From Lentinula raphanica (taxonomy: Eukaryota > Basidiomycota > Agaricomycetes > Agaricales > Omphalotaceae): DNA of 64,000 bases. Shown in pieces: positions 2,440 through 11,852 of this stretch. How positions within the stretch are numbered: position 1 is the first letter of the stretch; each line of letters opens with the position of its first letter. The notes below the pieces were generated by a model that saw nothing but the letters and a program-made list of their open reading frames with translations, did no database searches and was not told the origin of the DNA. The position numbers and the translations under genes are program-made. Location: the NCBI GenBank assembly GCA_027919835.1, contig JANVFP010000006.1, positions 310,001 through 374,000 of the forward strand, read 5' to 3'.

Positions 2440-3115
2440 ATGCGTGCTCACTCACTCTTATACCTGATCGTCGTTGCCACTATCGGCGCTGCTAGTGCAC
2501 TGCCTGCGGTGGAGGTGGTGAGCTCATTCATTTAACGAAACTCTATCGTTTGCTTACTGTACTTTCAGGGGTCGTCGGACGTTTCAGATGTTCTATCTGC
2601 TCGCATAGCAGAGTCCGAGGTGGTTGAACGAGAGGTAACTTTGATCTTTCCGGTGTCTCTTCATCACCGGATACTGACGAGTTGCTTCACAGACATACAA
2701 TCCTCGATGGAGACGCGATCCTCAGCGCTCTAACGCACCAGATTGGAAACGCGAACCACAGCGTGGTAATGCTCCAGACTGGAAACGCGAACCCCAACAC
2801 GGCACCGCACCAGATTGGAAACGCGAACCTCAGCGGGGTAACGCGCCAGACTGGAAACGTGAGCCCGAGCCTCAACGAAAGAACCCACCGGATTGGAAAC
2901 GAGAGCCTCAGCACGGTACCGCACCGGATTGGAAACGTGAACCCGAGCCTCAGCATGGTACGGCACCCGATTGGAAACGTGAACCTGAGCCTCAGCATGG
3001 TACGGCACCCGATTGGAAACGTGAACCTGAGCCTCAGCATGGCACGGCACCCGATTGGAAGCGCGAACCTCAGCGCGGAACCGCTCCCGATTGGAAACGT
3101 AGTGCATTCGTATGA
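2440..3115 (+). CDS. Secreted Kex2-processed repeat peptide precursor (KEP-like), ten octapeptide cores
   Basis: Exons 2440-2517, 2569-2634 and 2693-3115 give 188 residues. Residues 1-20 are a signal peptide (MRAHSLLYLIVVATIGAASA). After a short pro-region, a repeat field starts with RWRR at about residue 53 and holds ten units: a dipeptide DP, EP or EPEP, an octapeptide, then Lys-Arg. The cores fit Q-[RH]-[SGK]-[NT]-[AP]-P-D-W: QRSNAPDW, QRGNAPDW twice, QHGTAPDW five times, QRKNPPDW, QRGTAPDW. The protein ends SAFV after the last KR. Lys-Arg is the Kex2 site, and X-Pro/X-Ala dipeptides after KR are what Ste13 trims in yeast alpha-factor (KR-EAEA-core). The likely product is therefore many copies of a secreted octapeptide starting with Gln. 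Alternatives: a RiPP precursor whose cores are further modified, or a repetitive cell-wall protein. No tailoring gene such as a UstY-type protein is seen nearby. Confidence 0.85.
2714..3100 (+). repeat. Ten in-frame 36/42-bp tandem repeats encoding the peptide cores
   Basis: Units are 36 bp (EP type) or 42 bp (EPEP type). Units 7-9 are nearly identical at DNA level; earlier units differ mostly at third codon positions, pointing to older copies under protein-level constraint plus recent unit amplification. Confidence 0.85.
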
Positions 3116-6194: not shown

Positions 6195-7380
6195 ATGTCA
6201 CTCCAAGTCCATTCTTCGAGCGCCAAAAGCTGAATCCTTGGCATCGTTCTTATCGCGACTCTTACCTTCACACTCGGGGGGTCCACCGTTGATGCTTCGC
6301 CTCTTCCTCCTGGCATCCCACCCGGACGAGAGTCATCTGGTCCCATCGTAGCTCTCGATATTCATGGTTCTGTCTCAACCATGAGACGCGAGTTCAATTC
6401 CACGATCCTGGCTTTGAGCCCACGACAACTTCCTGAAAAAGGTAGCATCTCCCAACAACCTGCTGGGGAAGATGTCAATTCTCCTGGATTTGTCGAAGTT
6501 ATGAAGAATAGCTTGAAGCTTTTCAAGAACTTTCCTCTAACGGCGGACAGACGCACCAAGATATTAGACAAGGCGTCCATGTTAGTAGAATATACGTTCA
6601 TTGGCTACACATACGCAGATCCCGTGAGTCGATCTTTCATTTCGAAGTTGGATTGGCTTGTAGTATTGAACTCATCCAACTCCGCTAGAGAGTTGCCAAA
6701 AACCGCGAAGGCGCCATGATCAATGTACAGTTATTGTCACTCCCGAATCGTGATAAAAATTTACTGTCTGGTGGAAAGTATGGGATATATCTCCTTCCGA
6801 AAGTCTGGCCAGAGCAGAACCCGAAGGTGAGTTACTCATCTATACTATGTATATCGTTATACTACCGCCATGACTTACTTGTCTCAATGTTTAGGACGAG
6901 TGGGGGGAGCAGTTGTGGACTGTAAGCCACAATCTCGTCGCACCAATTATCGATGCGCGGTTAAAACCAGTGACCGGCTCTTGAAATTGGGTGTTGTAGT
7001 GTACGGTATATGCTAAGAGCAGCAAGATACCAGAGAAGACCAACAAGAAAAAACAGGAGACTGGCCAGATTGGAACGGAAACCAACAAGAACTCACAAAA
7101 GAACGACAAAGGAAAACAAGTCGAAACCGATACCATAGGACAGGAAACGGATGAAACCATAGAACAGATGAGGTCTATGATGGTACGTGACTGGCAACAG
7201 CGCGCGAGCACTTTTTCATATGAGTCGCTATAGGAATATAATGCAGCGGAACAGTATTCAGCTGAAGACCCCACTGAACGATTACCCTTATACAGCCAGG
7301 TTCCTCCAGAACCAACTGATTCAATTCTTTTTTTCCAGAATCCATTTACTCCCGTTACTCGAGACATCGTTGTGATGCGC

Positions 7381-7837: not shown

Positions 7838-8226
7838 TCTTTGAACTGCTACCGTGATGCATAAACAATGAAGACGGATGCTTCAAAAGCACAATAGATT
7901 GATAGATATTGAAGCTGAAGCCTCTTAGTTAGCAAGTGTTTGGGGAAAAGGCCGTGAGGCCTTTCGGGTCCCAGCACGGCGAAGTATCCACGGTCAGCTG
8001 CGATACCCATTCAGTAGGAGTGCACGACGCATCCAGTGACCGTGGATACCCAAATAGAAGGAGTAGCACTCAAACAAGAATTGCAGAGCAAATGAAACTG
8101 ACAGAGTTTGATCAGGTAGGACATGCAATTGTTGATGAACACAAGTGGTAGGGAGGCAGTGGCAAAGACCTAAAATTGAGCATGCAGTGGTAGCAGCACC
8201 ATAAGCATTGGCAATTGGCACAAGCA

Positions 8227-8502
8227 TTATAGGGACATGAGCAGGAGCAGTATCATAAGCATAAGCAGGAGCATAAGCAGGAGGAGTAGCAGTAGCATGA
8301 GCATGAGCAGGAGCAGAAGCAGAAGATGGAGCAGTAGCATGAGCAGTAGCATGAGCAGTGGCAGTGGCAGTAGCATGAGCAGTAACATGAGCAGTAGCAG
8401 TGGCATGCACAGTAGCATAAGCAGCAGCAGCATGAGCATGAGCAGTAGCAGTAGCATGAGCAGTGGCATAGGCCTTTGCCTTAGCAGTAGCAGTAGCAGC
8501 CC
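8227..8502. repeat. Microsatellite of GAGCAG/TAGCAT-type hexamers
   Basis: Imperfect run of hexamers such as AGCAGT, AGCATG and AGCAGG. Open frames across it are an artefact of the repeat. Confidence 0.9.
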
Positions 8503-8624
8503 ATGTAGAAGGACGAATCCTAACTACATGCTCGGAGGCCGAAGCCAACCGAGAGTAAGGCCGAAGCCAAACAGACAGTAGCGGTAGCGTAGCGTAGCGG
8601 TAGCAGTAGCAGTAGCAGCACCAC

Positions 8625-8974
8625 ACCATGAACGCGCATTCGTGGTGGTAGCAGTAGCAGTAGCGTAGCGGTGGCAGTACCACGAATGCGCGTTCGTGGT
8701 AGCAGTAGCAGTAGCAGTAGCAGCACCACGAACGCGCATTCGTGGTGGTAGGAGTAGCAGTAGCGTAGCGGTGGCAGTACCACGAATGCGCGTTCGTGGT
8801 AGCAGTAGCAGTAGTGGTAGCAATACCACGAACGCGTGTTCGTGGTGGCAGTAGCGGTAGCGGTAGCAGTACCCGCGCGTTTGCGGTAGAGTTGGCGTGA
8901 GCGGTACCGCGAACGCGCGTTTGCGGTAGAATTAGCGTGAGCGGTACCACGAACGCTCATGTGTTGTTCGTGGT
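8625..8974. repeat. Palindromic minisatellite, about eight hairpin units
   Basis: About eight copies of a 22-bp near-perfect palindrome of the form ACCACGAACGCGCATTCGTGGT, separated by GTAGCAGTAGC-type spacers, near 8625, 8678, 8725, 8779, 8824, 8870, 8906 and 8945. In the 8906 unit both arms changed together (ACCGC with GCGGT instead of ACCAC with GTGGT). Confidence 0.8.
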
Positions 8975-9778
8975 AGCATTGGAATTGGCAGATGGTGGCA
9001 GCGGTGGTAGCGATAGCAGTGCAGGAAGTAGTGGAAGCGGAGTGCAGTAGCGGCAAGGAGAGGAGGTTGCAGTAGGGGTAGCAGCCATTATTTCATGGCG
9101 GTGGTAAGGCGGAAAGAAAATAATTGGGCAAAGGCAGGCCCACATTGATAGCAAAGCAGTAAGCATGTAATTGATGTTGGAAGACTAGAAATGGACCTTA
9201 TGTGTTTGAGAAGCCCTCTTTCTGATTCCTGAAGCCCTCCTTCTCTGAGACACAAAATTAGCAGTAGCAGCACCAGCTGTGGCTGTTGTGCAAGGTGATC
9301 ATTGATGTTGAGGCCTTGAGGTGTTATGTTTGAGTGAAGGACAGTCAATTCTGAGGTGAGTTTTGAGCGAGTAGAGGAGAAAATGAAAGAAGGAGAAGTT
9401 GATGTGGAAAGGCTTCAACGCAAGCCTTTTCCACCAACCGGGCATGGATGATGTGGTTTGTAGCAGGAGCGGCAAGCATCACGTGCCGCGTTCGAAGACT
9501 CAAGTTTGCCGGCGCTCATTCTGAGCTAGTCAAACTGCCACTTCCCAAAGTGAAAAAATATATCGATGCATGGGACTTGTTAGCGTGGTGTTATGAATGT
9601 GAGTACTTAGTCGTTCAATGATCAAGTTAAAAAACTGTCTTCGGTCATTCTCCTTGATTGATTCTGTTCCTCAGCCCCGGATGGCCTGACAATGAATGCT
9701 CCATGGGAGGACTGGAGACGCAGTATAAAAAATCTGCCTGAAGATGTGAAATTAATCCCCACACACCGCAAGAACTGA

Positions 9779-10442
9779 TTACCCTGGTGGTAAGTGAGCG
9801 AGTCCTTTTCTTAACCCACGCAGAAATCAACTTCCTGAATCCTGTTGCCCTTCTCCAGATCAAACCGGAAATGCAAAGTCATCACAAGGTTCCATATACC
9901 ACATATGAGTGAACTGTAGCCTAGTGTAGACCCTATAAGACAGGAAGAAAAATTAGAGGTAGTAGTACCCTCAGAACACAGACGAGTGTGAAATTTGGAA
10001 CTTCGAATATGTACGGCGGTATGCCGTGGGAAATAATTTGCGATCAGATCAGGAACATCATGATCGTGCTCAGCTTCTCTTCTTCCATCCTCCTCCAGCA
10101 GCCTCCAAACAGCTCCAAACTCCCTTAGTTGAATGTACAGCAAAGGCTTGAGCATGTCCGTTCGCGACCTATAAAATGGCTCACCGGTTAATCTGTGCGG
10201 GCTCTCGCAGGGTTCCCGGACATGAGTGGCATTCTGTGGCATCGCCCTCTACACTGCCTTGAACATTCTATTCTTCTCGAATTACTAGACAACAAGCCAG
10301 GCTATGCCTTCACGAAACAACCGTAAGTCGTAACCCTCAAAATCCAACTTGGTGAATTCAAGTCTCTTTTTCTTTGCACCGACATCCTGAGAGCTGGTCT
10401 CATCCCTACTTCAAGTTCGATTTATCAATTTCGTCGACTATC
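9779..10442. other. Spacer and promoter of the intact secreted paralog
   Basis: The 3' flank of copy 1 (CCGGAAATGCAAAGTCATCAC and GTACCCTCAGAACACA) is repeated after the intact copy, marking the tandem-duplication unit. The promoter region follows. Confidence 0.5.
10170..10176 (+). promoter_or_regulatory. TATA box of the secreted-family gene
   Basis: TATAAAA about 270 bp before the start codon; the corresponding position in copy 1 reads TATAATAAAA. Confidence 0.5.
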
Positions 10443-11852
10443 ATGTCACTCCAAGTCCGTTCTTTCAACGCCAAAAGCTGTATACTTGGCATTGTCCTAT
10501 TAGCGACACTCACCTTCACAGTCGGGGGGTCGACCGCCTATGCGTCGCCTCTTCCCCCTATCCCACCAGGACAATCTGGTTCCACGGTAGCTCTCGATGT
10601 TCATGGTTCTGTCTCAACCTTAAGTCGCGACTTCAATTTCACGAGCCTGGCTCAGTTGAGCCCACGACAACTTCACGAAAAAGGTAGCAGCCCTCGAGCG
10701 CCTATCGAAGGTGAGCTTTCAAGTACCTCCGCAGGCAGGTGGCAGCTCTCAAGCACTTATTTATTTGAGCAGGTAGCAGCTCCCAACAACCTACTGAGGA
10801 AGATGACCATTCTTCTAGTAGTAGAACAGTTGTGAAGAAAGGATCGAGGCTTTTTCAGGCTCTATCATCGGCAGATAGACTCAACAGGCGATTAGACACC
10901 GCGGAATACACATTCATTGGCTATGGATACGCACTTCCAGTAAGTCGACCTTGAATCCTCAAATTGGAGTGGCCCAGAGCTTTGAGCTGATTCTATTCCG
11001 CTAGAGCGTTGCCAAGCAATACAAAGGCAAGACGATGCCTACGGTTGCAGATTTGAAACTCGCGAATCCCGATTGGAGTCTGACATCAGGGGGAATATAT
11101 GGAATATATCTCCTTCCACAAATCATGCCAGAACAAAACCCGACTGTGAGTGGTACTCGAGATGGGACGGAACGCATCTGATGTATGTTTTGTTGATACT
11201 GCCTCGACTGGTCTCAACGTTTAGAAATTGTACTGGACTGTGAGTTGCAGTTTCATTGCGATGTCTACACTGATCATCGATGGGTAAAAACTGACCGGGT
11301 TTTGACATTGACCATTGCAGTGTCCGGTATACGCCAAGACCGACATGATAGAAGAGAGCAAGAAGAAACAAAAGACGAGTTTCAAAGGAAAATCAAAAAC
11401 AGATGATTCCGTAGTAGGTCCAATGAGGTCTACGATGGTACGTGATCAACAAATGCGCGAGCGTTTCCATCTAACCCACTAGTATAGAGATATAATGAAT
11501 TGGAACCGTACTATCCTGAGGACCCTAATTACTTACCCGAATATAGCCAGGAAGAGCCTGACCATCAGCATGTAATCGATTTCTTCAAAAGTCCGAACTT
11601 TCCCAACGTCGTTGCGATGCGCATTCCAAAAGACCAAGATCACAAGTACATCCAAGCCTGGGGCCTATTAGCGCGGTGTTATGATTGTGAGTACTGACAC
11701 AGCGGTTCGCTGCAGGATTGTCTTTGGGCATTCTCCTTTTTTGACTCCGTTTATCAGCCCCGGATGGCCTGACAATGAAAGCTCCATGGGAGGAATGGAG
11801 AGCCAGTATTAAAAATCTGCCTGAGGATGTGGCATTAGTCCCTGAACTCTGA
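10443..11852 (+). CDS. Secreted protein of unknown function, intact tandem copy 2
   Basis: Seven exons (10443-10710, 10773-10939, 11005-11145, 11225-11239, 11321-11437, 11488-11686, 11758-11852) give 333 residues in one closed frame. The N-terminus has a hydrophobic signal segment (SCILGIVLLATLTFTVGG) followed by a Pro/Gly-rich stretch. Recognisable blocks are EYTFIGYGYALP (134-145), GGIYGIYLLP (174-183), a 15-nt microexon KLYWT, a Lys-rich segment, NVVAMRIPKD, and APWEEW near the end. I do not recognise the family. The spacing of FIGY and GGIY blocks is loosely like secreted ADP-ribosyltransferase-type folds, but the usual HGT motif is absent, so this is speculation. It follows a pseudogene copy and precedes a 3' fragment. 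Confidence 0.75.

Follow-up and report, generated by a model that had tools for sequence, protein, structure and literature searches.

The gene at positions 2440–3115 (forward strand) of the 64,000-nucleotide stretch of Lentinula raphanica DNA analyzed here (the window) encodes, with a probability of about 0.85, an alpha-pheromone-like KEX2-processed repeat protein (KEP) with a Ste13 signature, from which linear octapeptides would be cut and secreted. Both the cleavage and the function are predicted from sequence. The KEP class, its processing and related peptides are published; what is new here is a member with a PDW ending. The locus adds a clear ten-copy member to this class, with defined peptide masses.

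Gene structure and relatives in other fungi

Translation of the locus, with introns inferred from splice signals and reading frame, gave three exons and a precursor of 188 amino acids, with a start codon (ATG) at 2440 and a stop codon (TGA) at 3113–3115. Exon 1 (2440–2517) contains the start codon, a predicted signal peptide, MRAHSLLYLIVVATIGAASA (2440–2499), and the residues LPAVEV. The signal peptide was predicted from a hydrophobic N-terminus (mean Kyte-Doolittle value up to 2.56 over 11 residues) and from an AxA site preceding LP that was judged by eye. Exon 2 (2569–2634) encodes a pro-region, GSSDVSDVLSARIAESEVVERE, that can be aligned to the leader of a Lentinula protein. Exon 3 (2693–3115) lies in an open reading frame that extends from stop to stop over 2678–3115, and codes first for a degenerate unit (TYNPRW-RR), then for ten octapeptides of the form QxxxxPDW, all ended by KR, and finally for the tail SAFV. 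Intron 1 (2518–2568, 51 bp, GTGAGC..TTTCAG) and intron 2 (2635–2692, 58 bp, GTAACT..TCACAG) are both of the GT..AG type, stand in phase 0 and link the exon for the signal peptide with the one for the repeats.

The repeat array (2717–3100, tandem repeats with a period of 36/42) extends from a first core at 2723–2746 to a last core at 3071–3094. Each core is preceded by EP (five units), EPEP (four units) or DP (one unit). QHGTAPDW occurs five times and QRGNAPDW twice, while QRSNAPDW, QRKNPPDW and QRGTAPDW occur once each. The coordinates, the signal peptide and the ten cores with their dipeptides and KR sites had been described in a previous sequence-only reading of this DNA, and re-translation reproduced all of them. 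Core positions 1, 6, 7 and 8 (Q, P, D, W), which the same reading had called constant, are indeed invariant in 10 of 10 units, as is the trailing KR. The precursor thus displays the features by which KEPs are recognized, namely a (predicted) N-terminal signal peptide and similar repeats divided by KR, together with the XA/XP-type dipeptides after the Kex2 site that constitute a Ste13 signature. The calculated [M+H]+ of QHGTAPDW is 911.4006, and that of its pyroglutamyl form is 894.3740; for QRGNAPDW the corresponding values are 943.4380 and 926.4115. The protein has no Pfam match above the gathering score (two matches fall below this threshold), and Rfam gave no match within the window at gathering thresholds.

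The best match in protein databases is a hypothetical protein from Lentinula aff. lateritia (F5876DRAFT_72472, E = 5e-31). Its leader and that of the window precursor have 26 of 50 aligned residues in common, ALPAVE among them, and its units follow the same scheme of EP, core and KR with an identical core, QRGNAPDW. This protein differs from the window precursor in that it contains four cores (QRANSPDW and three copies of QRGNAPDW) instead of ten, lacks the EPEP spacer and the QHGT variant, and ends in EAEGNPV. It has no Pfam match either. This closest named relative supports the earlier proposal that such a precursor exists in a mushroom-type basidiomycete.

Three protein searches with permissive limits (E ≤ 1 for two, E ≤ 10 for the third) returned 39 distinct matches in total. 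At E ≤ 1e-3 we found at least 25 proteins among the 7993 candidates sharing most words that were scored; six of these had been part of the query alignment, so that their match is expected by design, and 19 had not. The alignment rows include proteins from Lentinula, from Phellopilus and Sanghuangporus weigelae (these two with GGSGKDW), and from Leucocoprinus (QADW) and Pleurotus djamor (GSPDW); on its own, the P. djamor protein reached only E = 0.94. The 19 other matches listed include proteins from Termitomyces (PGW), Fomitiporia (GGSSKDW), Pleurotus eryngii (WRADW) and Elasticomyces (GSPDW), as well as from Amanita thiersii, Hebeloma, Ramaria and Lyophyllum.

To describe the products encoded by these relatives we counted pieces of 3–30 amino acids bounded by dibasic sites. 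Among the 19 non-query matches listed, 92 of 96 pieces end in Trp, 58 of 96 end in Asp-Trp, and 82 of 96 start with X-Pro or X-Ala. For the window precursor and all 39 matches, weak ones included (40 sequences), the corresponding counts are 162, 117 and 154 of 182. The fraction of Trp ends in this larger set (0.890) compares with a mean of 0.049 and a maximum of 0.25 in 200 residue shuffles, but this statistic is biased and describes the collected set only, because the matches were picked via shared five-residue words, among them Trp-Lys-Arg words such as DWKRE. Two of the matches are unlikely to be KEPs of the type seen here, namely P0006 (cores ending in YY, E = 6e-3) and P0038 (E = 2.3, carrying a Pfam domain); both were kept in the 182-piece counts but not in the per-protein residue tally, which covers 38 sequences. 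As a separate observation, the protein from the ascomycete Elasticomyces elasticus (P0016) combines a signal-like N-terminus with LAGGSPDW-KR repeats and resembles the mushroom -PDW precursors, a likeness that may be due to convergence, transfer or contamination.

Within the L. raphanica genome we found no paralogue with the same spacing in two pattern searches, from which copies with different spacings could escape. The first pattern returned 21 matches, 10 of them at the window locus (reversed control pattern: 9 matches); the second returned 43, with 10 at the window locus and the other 33 scattered (reversed control: 20). In both searches the window locus was the only place with repeated units.

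Proposed maturation and function

Judged by analogy, the precursor is likely to be cleaved into linear peptides that are secreted. The precursor would enter the secretory pathway, a Kex2-type protease would cleave after every Lys-Arg, a Kex1-type carboxypeptidase would take off both basic residues, and an enzyme of the DPP-IV/Ste13 type would trim the Glu-Pro and Asp-Pro dipeptides in successive two-residue steps. Each precursor would then give rise to about ten linear octapeptides with a free C-terminal Trp, chiefly QHGTAPDW and QRGNAPDW, in which the N-terminal Gln is perhaps cyclized to pyroglutamate.

We searched the 49.06-Mb assembly (75 contigs, with the window gene on contig C6) for candidate enzymes. 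One Kex2-like frame of 856 amino acids comprises S8 and P domains and a C-terminal transmembrane segment, and a second Kex2-like locus has S8 and P-domain matches; this count of at least two P-domain loci, in which split genes may be missed, compares with three KEX2 paralogues in Coprinopsis cinerea. A single DPPIV_N locus has an N-terminal transmembrane segment, the motif GWSYGG across a splice junction and the motif HGSGDDNVHF. In the PDB this locus matches a bacterial DPP4 best, and its predicted features suit the role of Ste13. The genome also contains 25 S10 carboxypeptidase segments, and the KEX1 orthologue may be among them. With two Kex2-like loci, one membrane-anchored locus of the DPP-IV type and S10 carboxypeptidases, a Kex2/Kex1/Ste13 route is credible. 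The sequence-only reading had proposed an alpha-factor-like plan of Kex2 plus dipeptidyl aminopeptidase, and had suggested looking for Kex2 and Ste13 homologs; the anatomy of the precursor and the candidate loci in the genome both support this proposal.

The same reading had suggested that the N-terminal Gln could form pyroglutamate. By analogy this modification is possible, since Pichia stripped the XA/XP dipeptides from Coprinopsis KEP 490115 to yield QYKAPSW as well as its pyroglutamyl form (PMC9769878). In the genome we recognized no glutaminyl cyclase among eight of the nine M28 matches (all except one on C3). For two of these eight, a PDB comparison using the strand of the match gave leucyl aminopeptidases in one case and no match in the other, and six were judged by eye as frames. 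A glutaminyl cyclase motif occurred at two places in the genome, both in short frames and neither recognizable as this enzyme.

The peptides would most likely act outside the cell, serving either as a signal unrelated to mating or in interactions with other organisms. The second option, which falls within the KEP reading and overlaps with it, is that of a secreted factor directed toward bacteria, animals, plants or other fungi, with no function as a self-signal. We give it less than even odds. Knockouts of six C. cinerea KEPs are reported to be normal in axenic culture and without phenotype, which leaves a signaling role unproven for the KEP class, and the authors of that study favor biotic interaction (PMC9769878). 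On the other hand, the synthetic KEP peptides described in the same report had no antibacterial activity (PMC9769878), and the core is kept between L. raphanica and the Lentinula aff. lateritia precursor, an observation that speaks, though not decisively, against an outward-directed factor. It is also conceivable, if rather unlikely, that peptides in -PDW, -ADW and -KDW with a free C-terminal Asp-Trp form one widespread family of agaricomycete peptide hormones with a dedicated non-STE2 receptor, for which the Trp end would be conserved for recognition and the N-terminal half would vary between lineages. Because the masses are defined and the pattern searches used revealed no second copy, a single knockout combined with a synthetic-peptide test is practical for the KEP encoded in the window.

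Other readings of the locus

The mating pheromones of basidiomycetes are lipidated a-type peptides. Since basidiomycetes mate via such peptides, the presence of alpha-factor-like precursors in mushrooms points to a second peptide system, one not used for mating. That the window gene instead encodes a mating pheromone acting via a receptor in the ascomycete fashion is very improbable. The plan of the precursor is that of ascomycete alpha-pheromones, but the genome contains 24 STE3 segments on contigs C36, C1, C8 and C23 and none on C6, as fits an ordinary basidiomycete a-type system. This distribution agrees with the earlier view that a conventional mating role is unlikely. The STE2 profile (PF02116) had no match in the genome, and the control genomes were likewise silent in the same search. 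To our knowledge, the window core resembles no alpha-pheromone. Several of the STE3 receptor segments lie within about 87 kb on C36 (85240–172227), and this group is probably a pheromone-receptor mating-type locus.

Equally little speaks for a precursor of a dikaritin-type (ustiloxin-like) RiPP, cyclic and oxidized, in which the repeats would serve as cores for UstYa-type oxidases. The layout of signal peptide, repeats and KR sites is common to both kinds of precursor, the genome holds UstYa matches (on C12, C17 and C19), and a DUF3328 gene has been reported near 17 of 76 homologues of basidiomycete pheromone-like KEPs (Umemura, PMC7329392). However, none of the 13 UstYa (DUF3328) matches lies on C6, and Tyr, a feature of dikaritin cyclization (PMC7329392), occurs in none of the ten cores, so that an oxidized cyclic product is unlikely. 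Furthermore, the Ste13 signature is reported to be missing from the precursors of ascomycete toxic cyclic peptides and of epichloecyclins (PMC6339444). With no UstYa match on C6 and no Tyr in any core, we rejected a dikaritin identity, and with it the RiPP alternative, in this sense, of the sequence-only reading. Elsewhere in the genome, UstYa-domain segments are clustered within about 6 kb on C17 (1065188–1071366), possibly as part of a cyclic-peptide (dikaritin) gene cluster.

Among 25 frames compared with Pfam, 21 within the window and four up to 10 kb upstream, no biosynthetic cluster is evident and the surroundings are of the housekeeping type. Twelve frames had a match, a count from which small or intron-split genes may be missing. 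The matches within the window are an HhH-GPD repair protein, N-myristoyltransferase (three frames), UFD1, TCP-1 chaperonin, Rrn6, an O-methyltransferase at 40.3 kb, Rad54 and inositol-pentakisphosphate 2-kinase; those upstream are sirohaem synthase and a DUF6691 protein. Two further observations concern the window. A long low-complexity array at 7994–9092, with units of the GAGCAG/GTAGCA type and of 40–100 bp and with several frames open, looks like a microsatellite-derived tract and not like a gene. The reading frames at 6234–6719 and 10356–10835, neither with a Pfam match, share an opening of the form ILGIVL(I/L)ATLTFT(L/V)GGST..ASPLPP and are alike in the stretch that follows, which suggests a duplicated gene for a small secreted protein with copies about 4 kb apart.

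Finally, it is extremely improbable that the locus is no gene at all but a tandem repeat open by chance in several frames: other frames are indeed open across the array (147 and 152 amino acids in antisense, 169 in a second sense frame), but the signal peptide, the in-phase introns, the third-position variation and the annotated relatives in the same frame in other species all oppose this explanation. Frame openness is no evidence of coding, because tandem duplication alone keeps several frames open, and an array free of stops and with a period divisible by three stays open in several frames, as seen here. More informative is the distribution of variable sites across the ten unit copies of 30 bases, where variation is seen at 9 of 10 third codon positions as compared to 5 of 20 first and second positions (Fisher one-sided p = 0.0011, which is only a guide since the unit copies are not independent). 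The sole invariant third position is that of the single-codon Trp. Of the pairwise changes, a share of 0.54 is synonymous in the coding frame, as compared to 0.01 and 0.18 in the remaining sense frames; the three antisense frames give 0.05, 0.51 and 0.04. The antisense value of 0.51 comes close to that of the coding frame, as a chance-open repeat would allow, and the synonymous test alone cannot exclude this frame because the wobble positions are common to both. What decides for the sense frame is the signal peptide, together with the annotated relatives in other fungi that use the same frame, and the antisense reading was rejected since these relatives are annotated in the sense frame. We conclude that the gene is well formed and real, and that this alpha-factor-like KEP with its -PDW core is probably functional.

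Comparison with known systems

KEPs occur throughout fungi, and those of basidiomycetes bear Ste13 signatures according to reports from 2019 to 2022 (PMC6339444, PMC7329392, PMC9769878). In view of these reports the window locus belongs to a published class. The novelty implied by the sequence-only reading does not hold, since basidiomycete KEPs with Ste13 signatures and with -AADW and -APSW cores are in print (PMC6339444, PMC7329392, PMC9769878), and since the Lentinula database protein already encodes the core QRGNAPDW. The main texts of PMC9769878, PMC6339444 and PMC7329392 do not contain the string PDW, and the available text of these three papers reports no role for related basidiomycete peptides. 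Among titles and abstracts, in a coverage outside of which most subscription journals lie, we found none that gives such a peptide a function.

The precursors of the dikaritins ustiloxin, phomopsin and asperipin resemble the window precursor in their signal peptide and in repeats separated by dibasic sites, whereas the window gene has no UstYa match on its contig, no Tyr in the cores, and Ste13 dipeptides. The precursors of yeast alpha-factor and of ascomycete alpha-pheromones share the Kex2, Kex1 and Ste13 plan (PMC9769878, PMC6339444) but contain a core other than QxxxxPDW. KEP 490115 of C. cinerea is similar in its N-terminal Gln, Ste13 dipeptides and C-terminal Trp (QYKAPSW, QMRPPSW), but differs by an RR site and by -PSW in place of -PDW (PMC9769878). 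By mass spectrometry, peptides of the MSGVAADW type were detected in Pleurotus fruiting bodies and SGTGEASAADW in shiitake (Vogt et al. 2022, PMC9769878). The corresponding precursors, Pleurotus KEP 1091723 / 1439342 and Lentinula edodes KEP 2599, contain repeats at dibasic sites and give peptides that end in Asp-Trp like the window cores, and the Pleurotus precursors also share the XA/XP dipeptides (PMC9769878). The detected peptides (MSGVAADW, LSGVAADW, SGVAADW and SGTGEASAADW) end in -AADW instead of the -APDW found here, and they do not start with the Gln that opens every core of the window precursor (PMC9769878).
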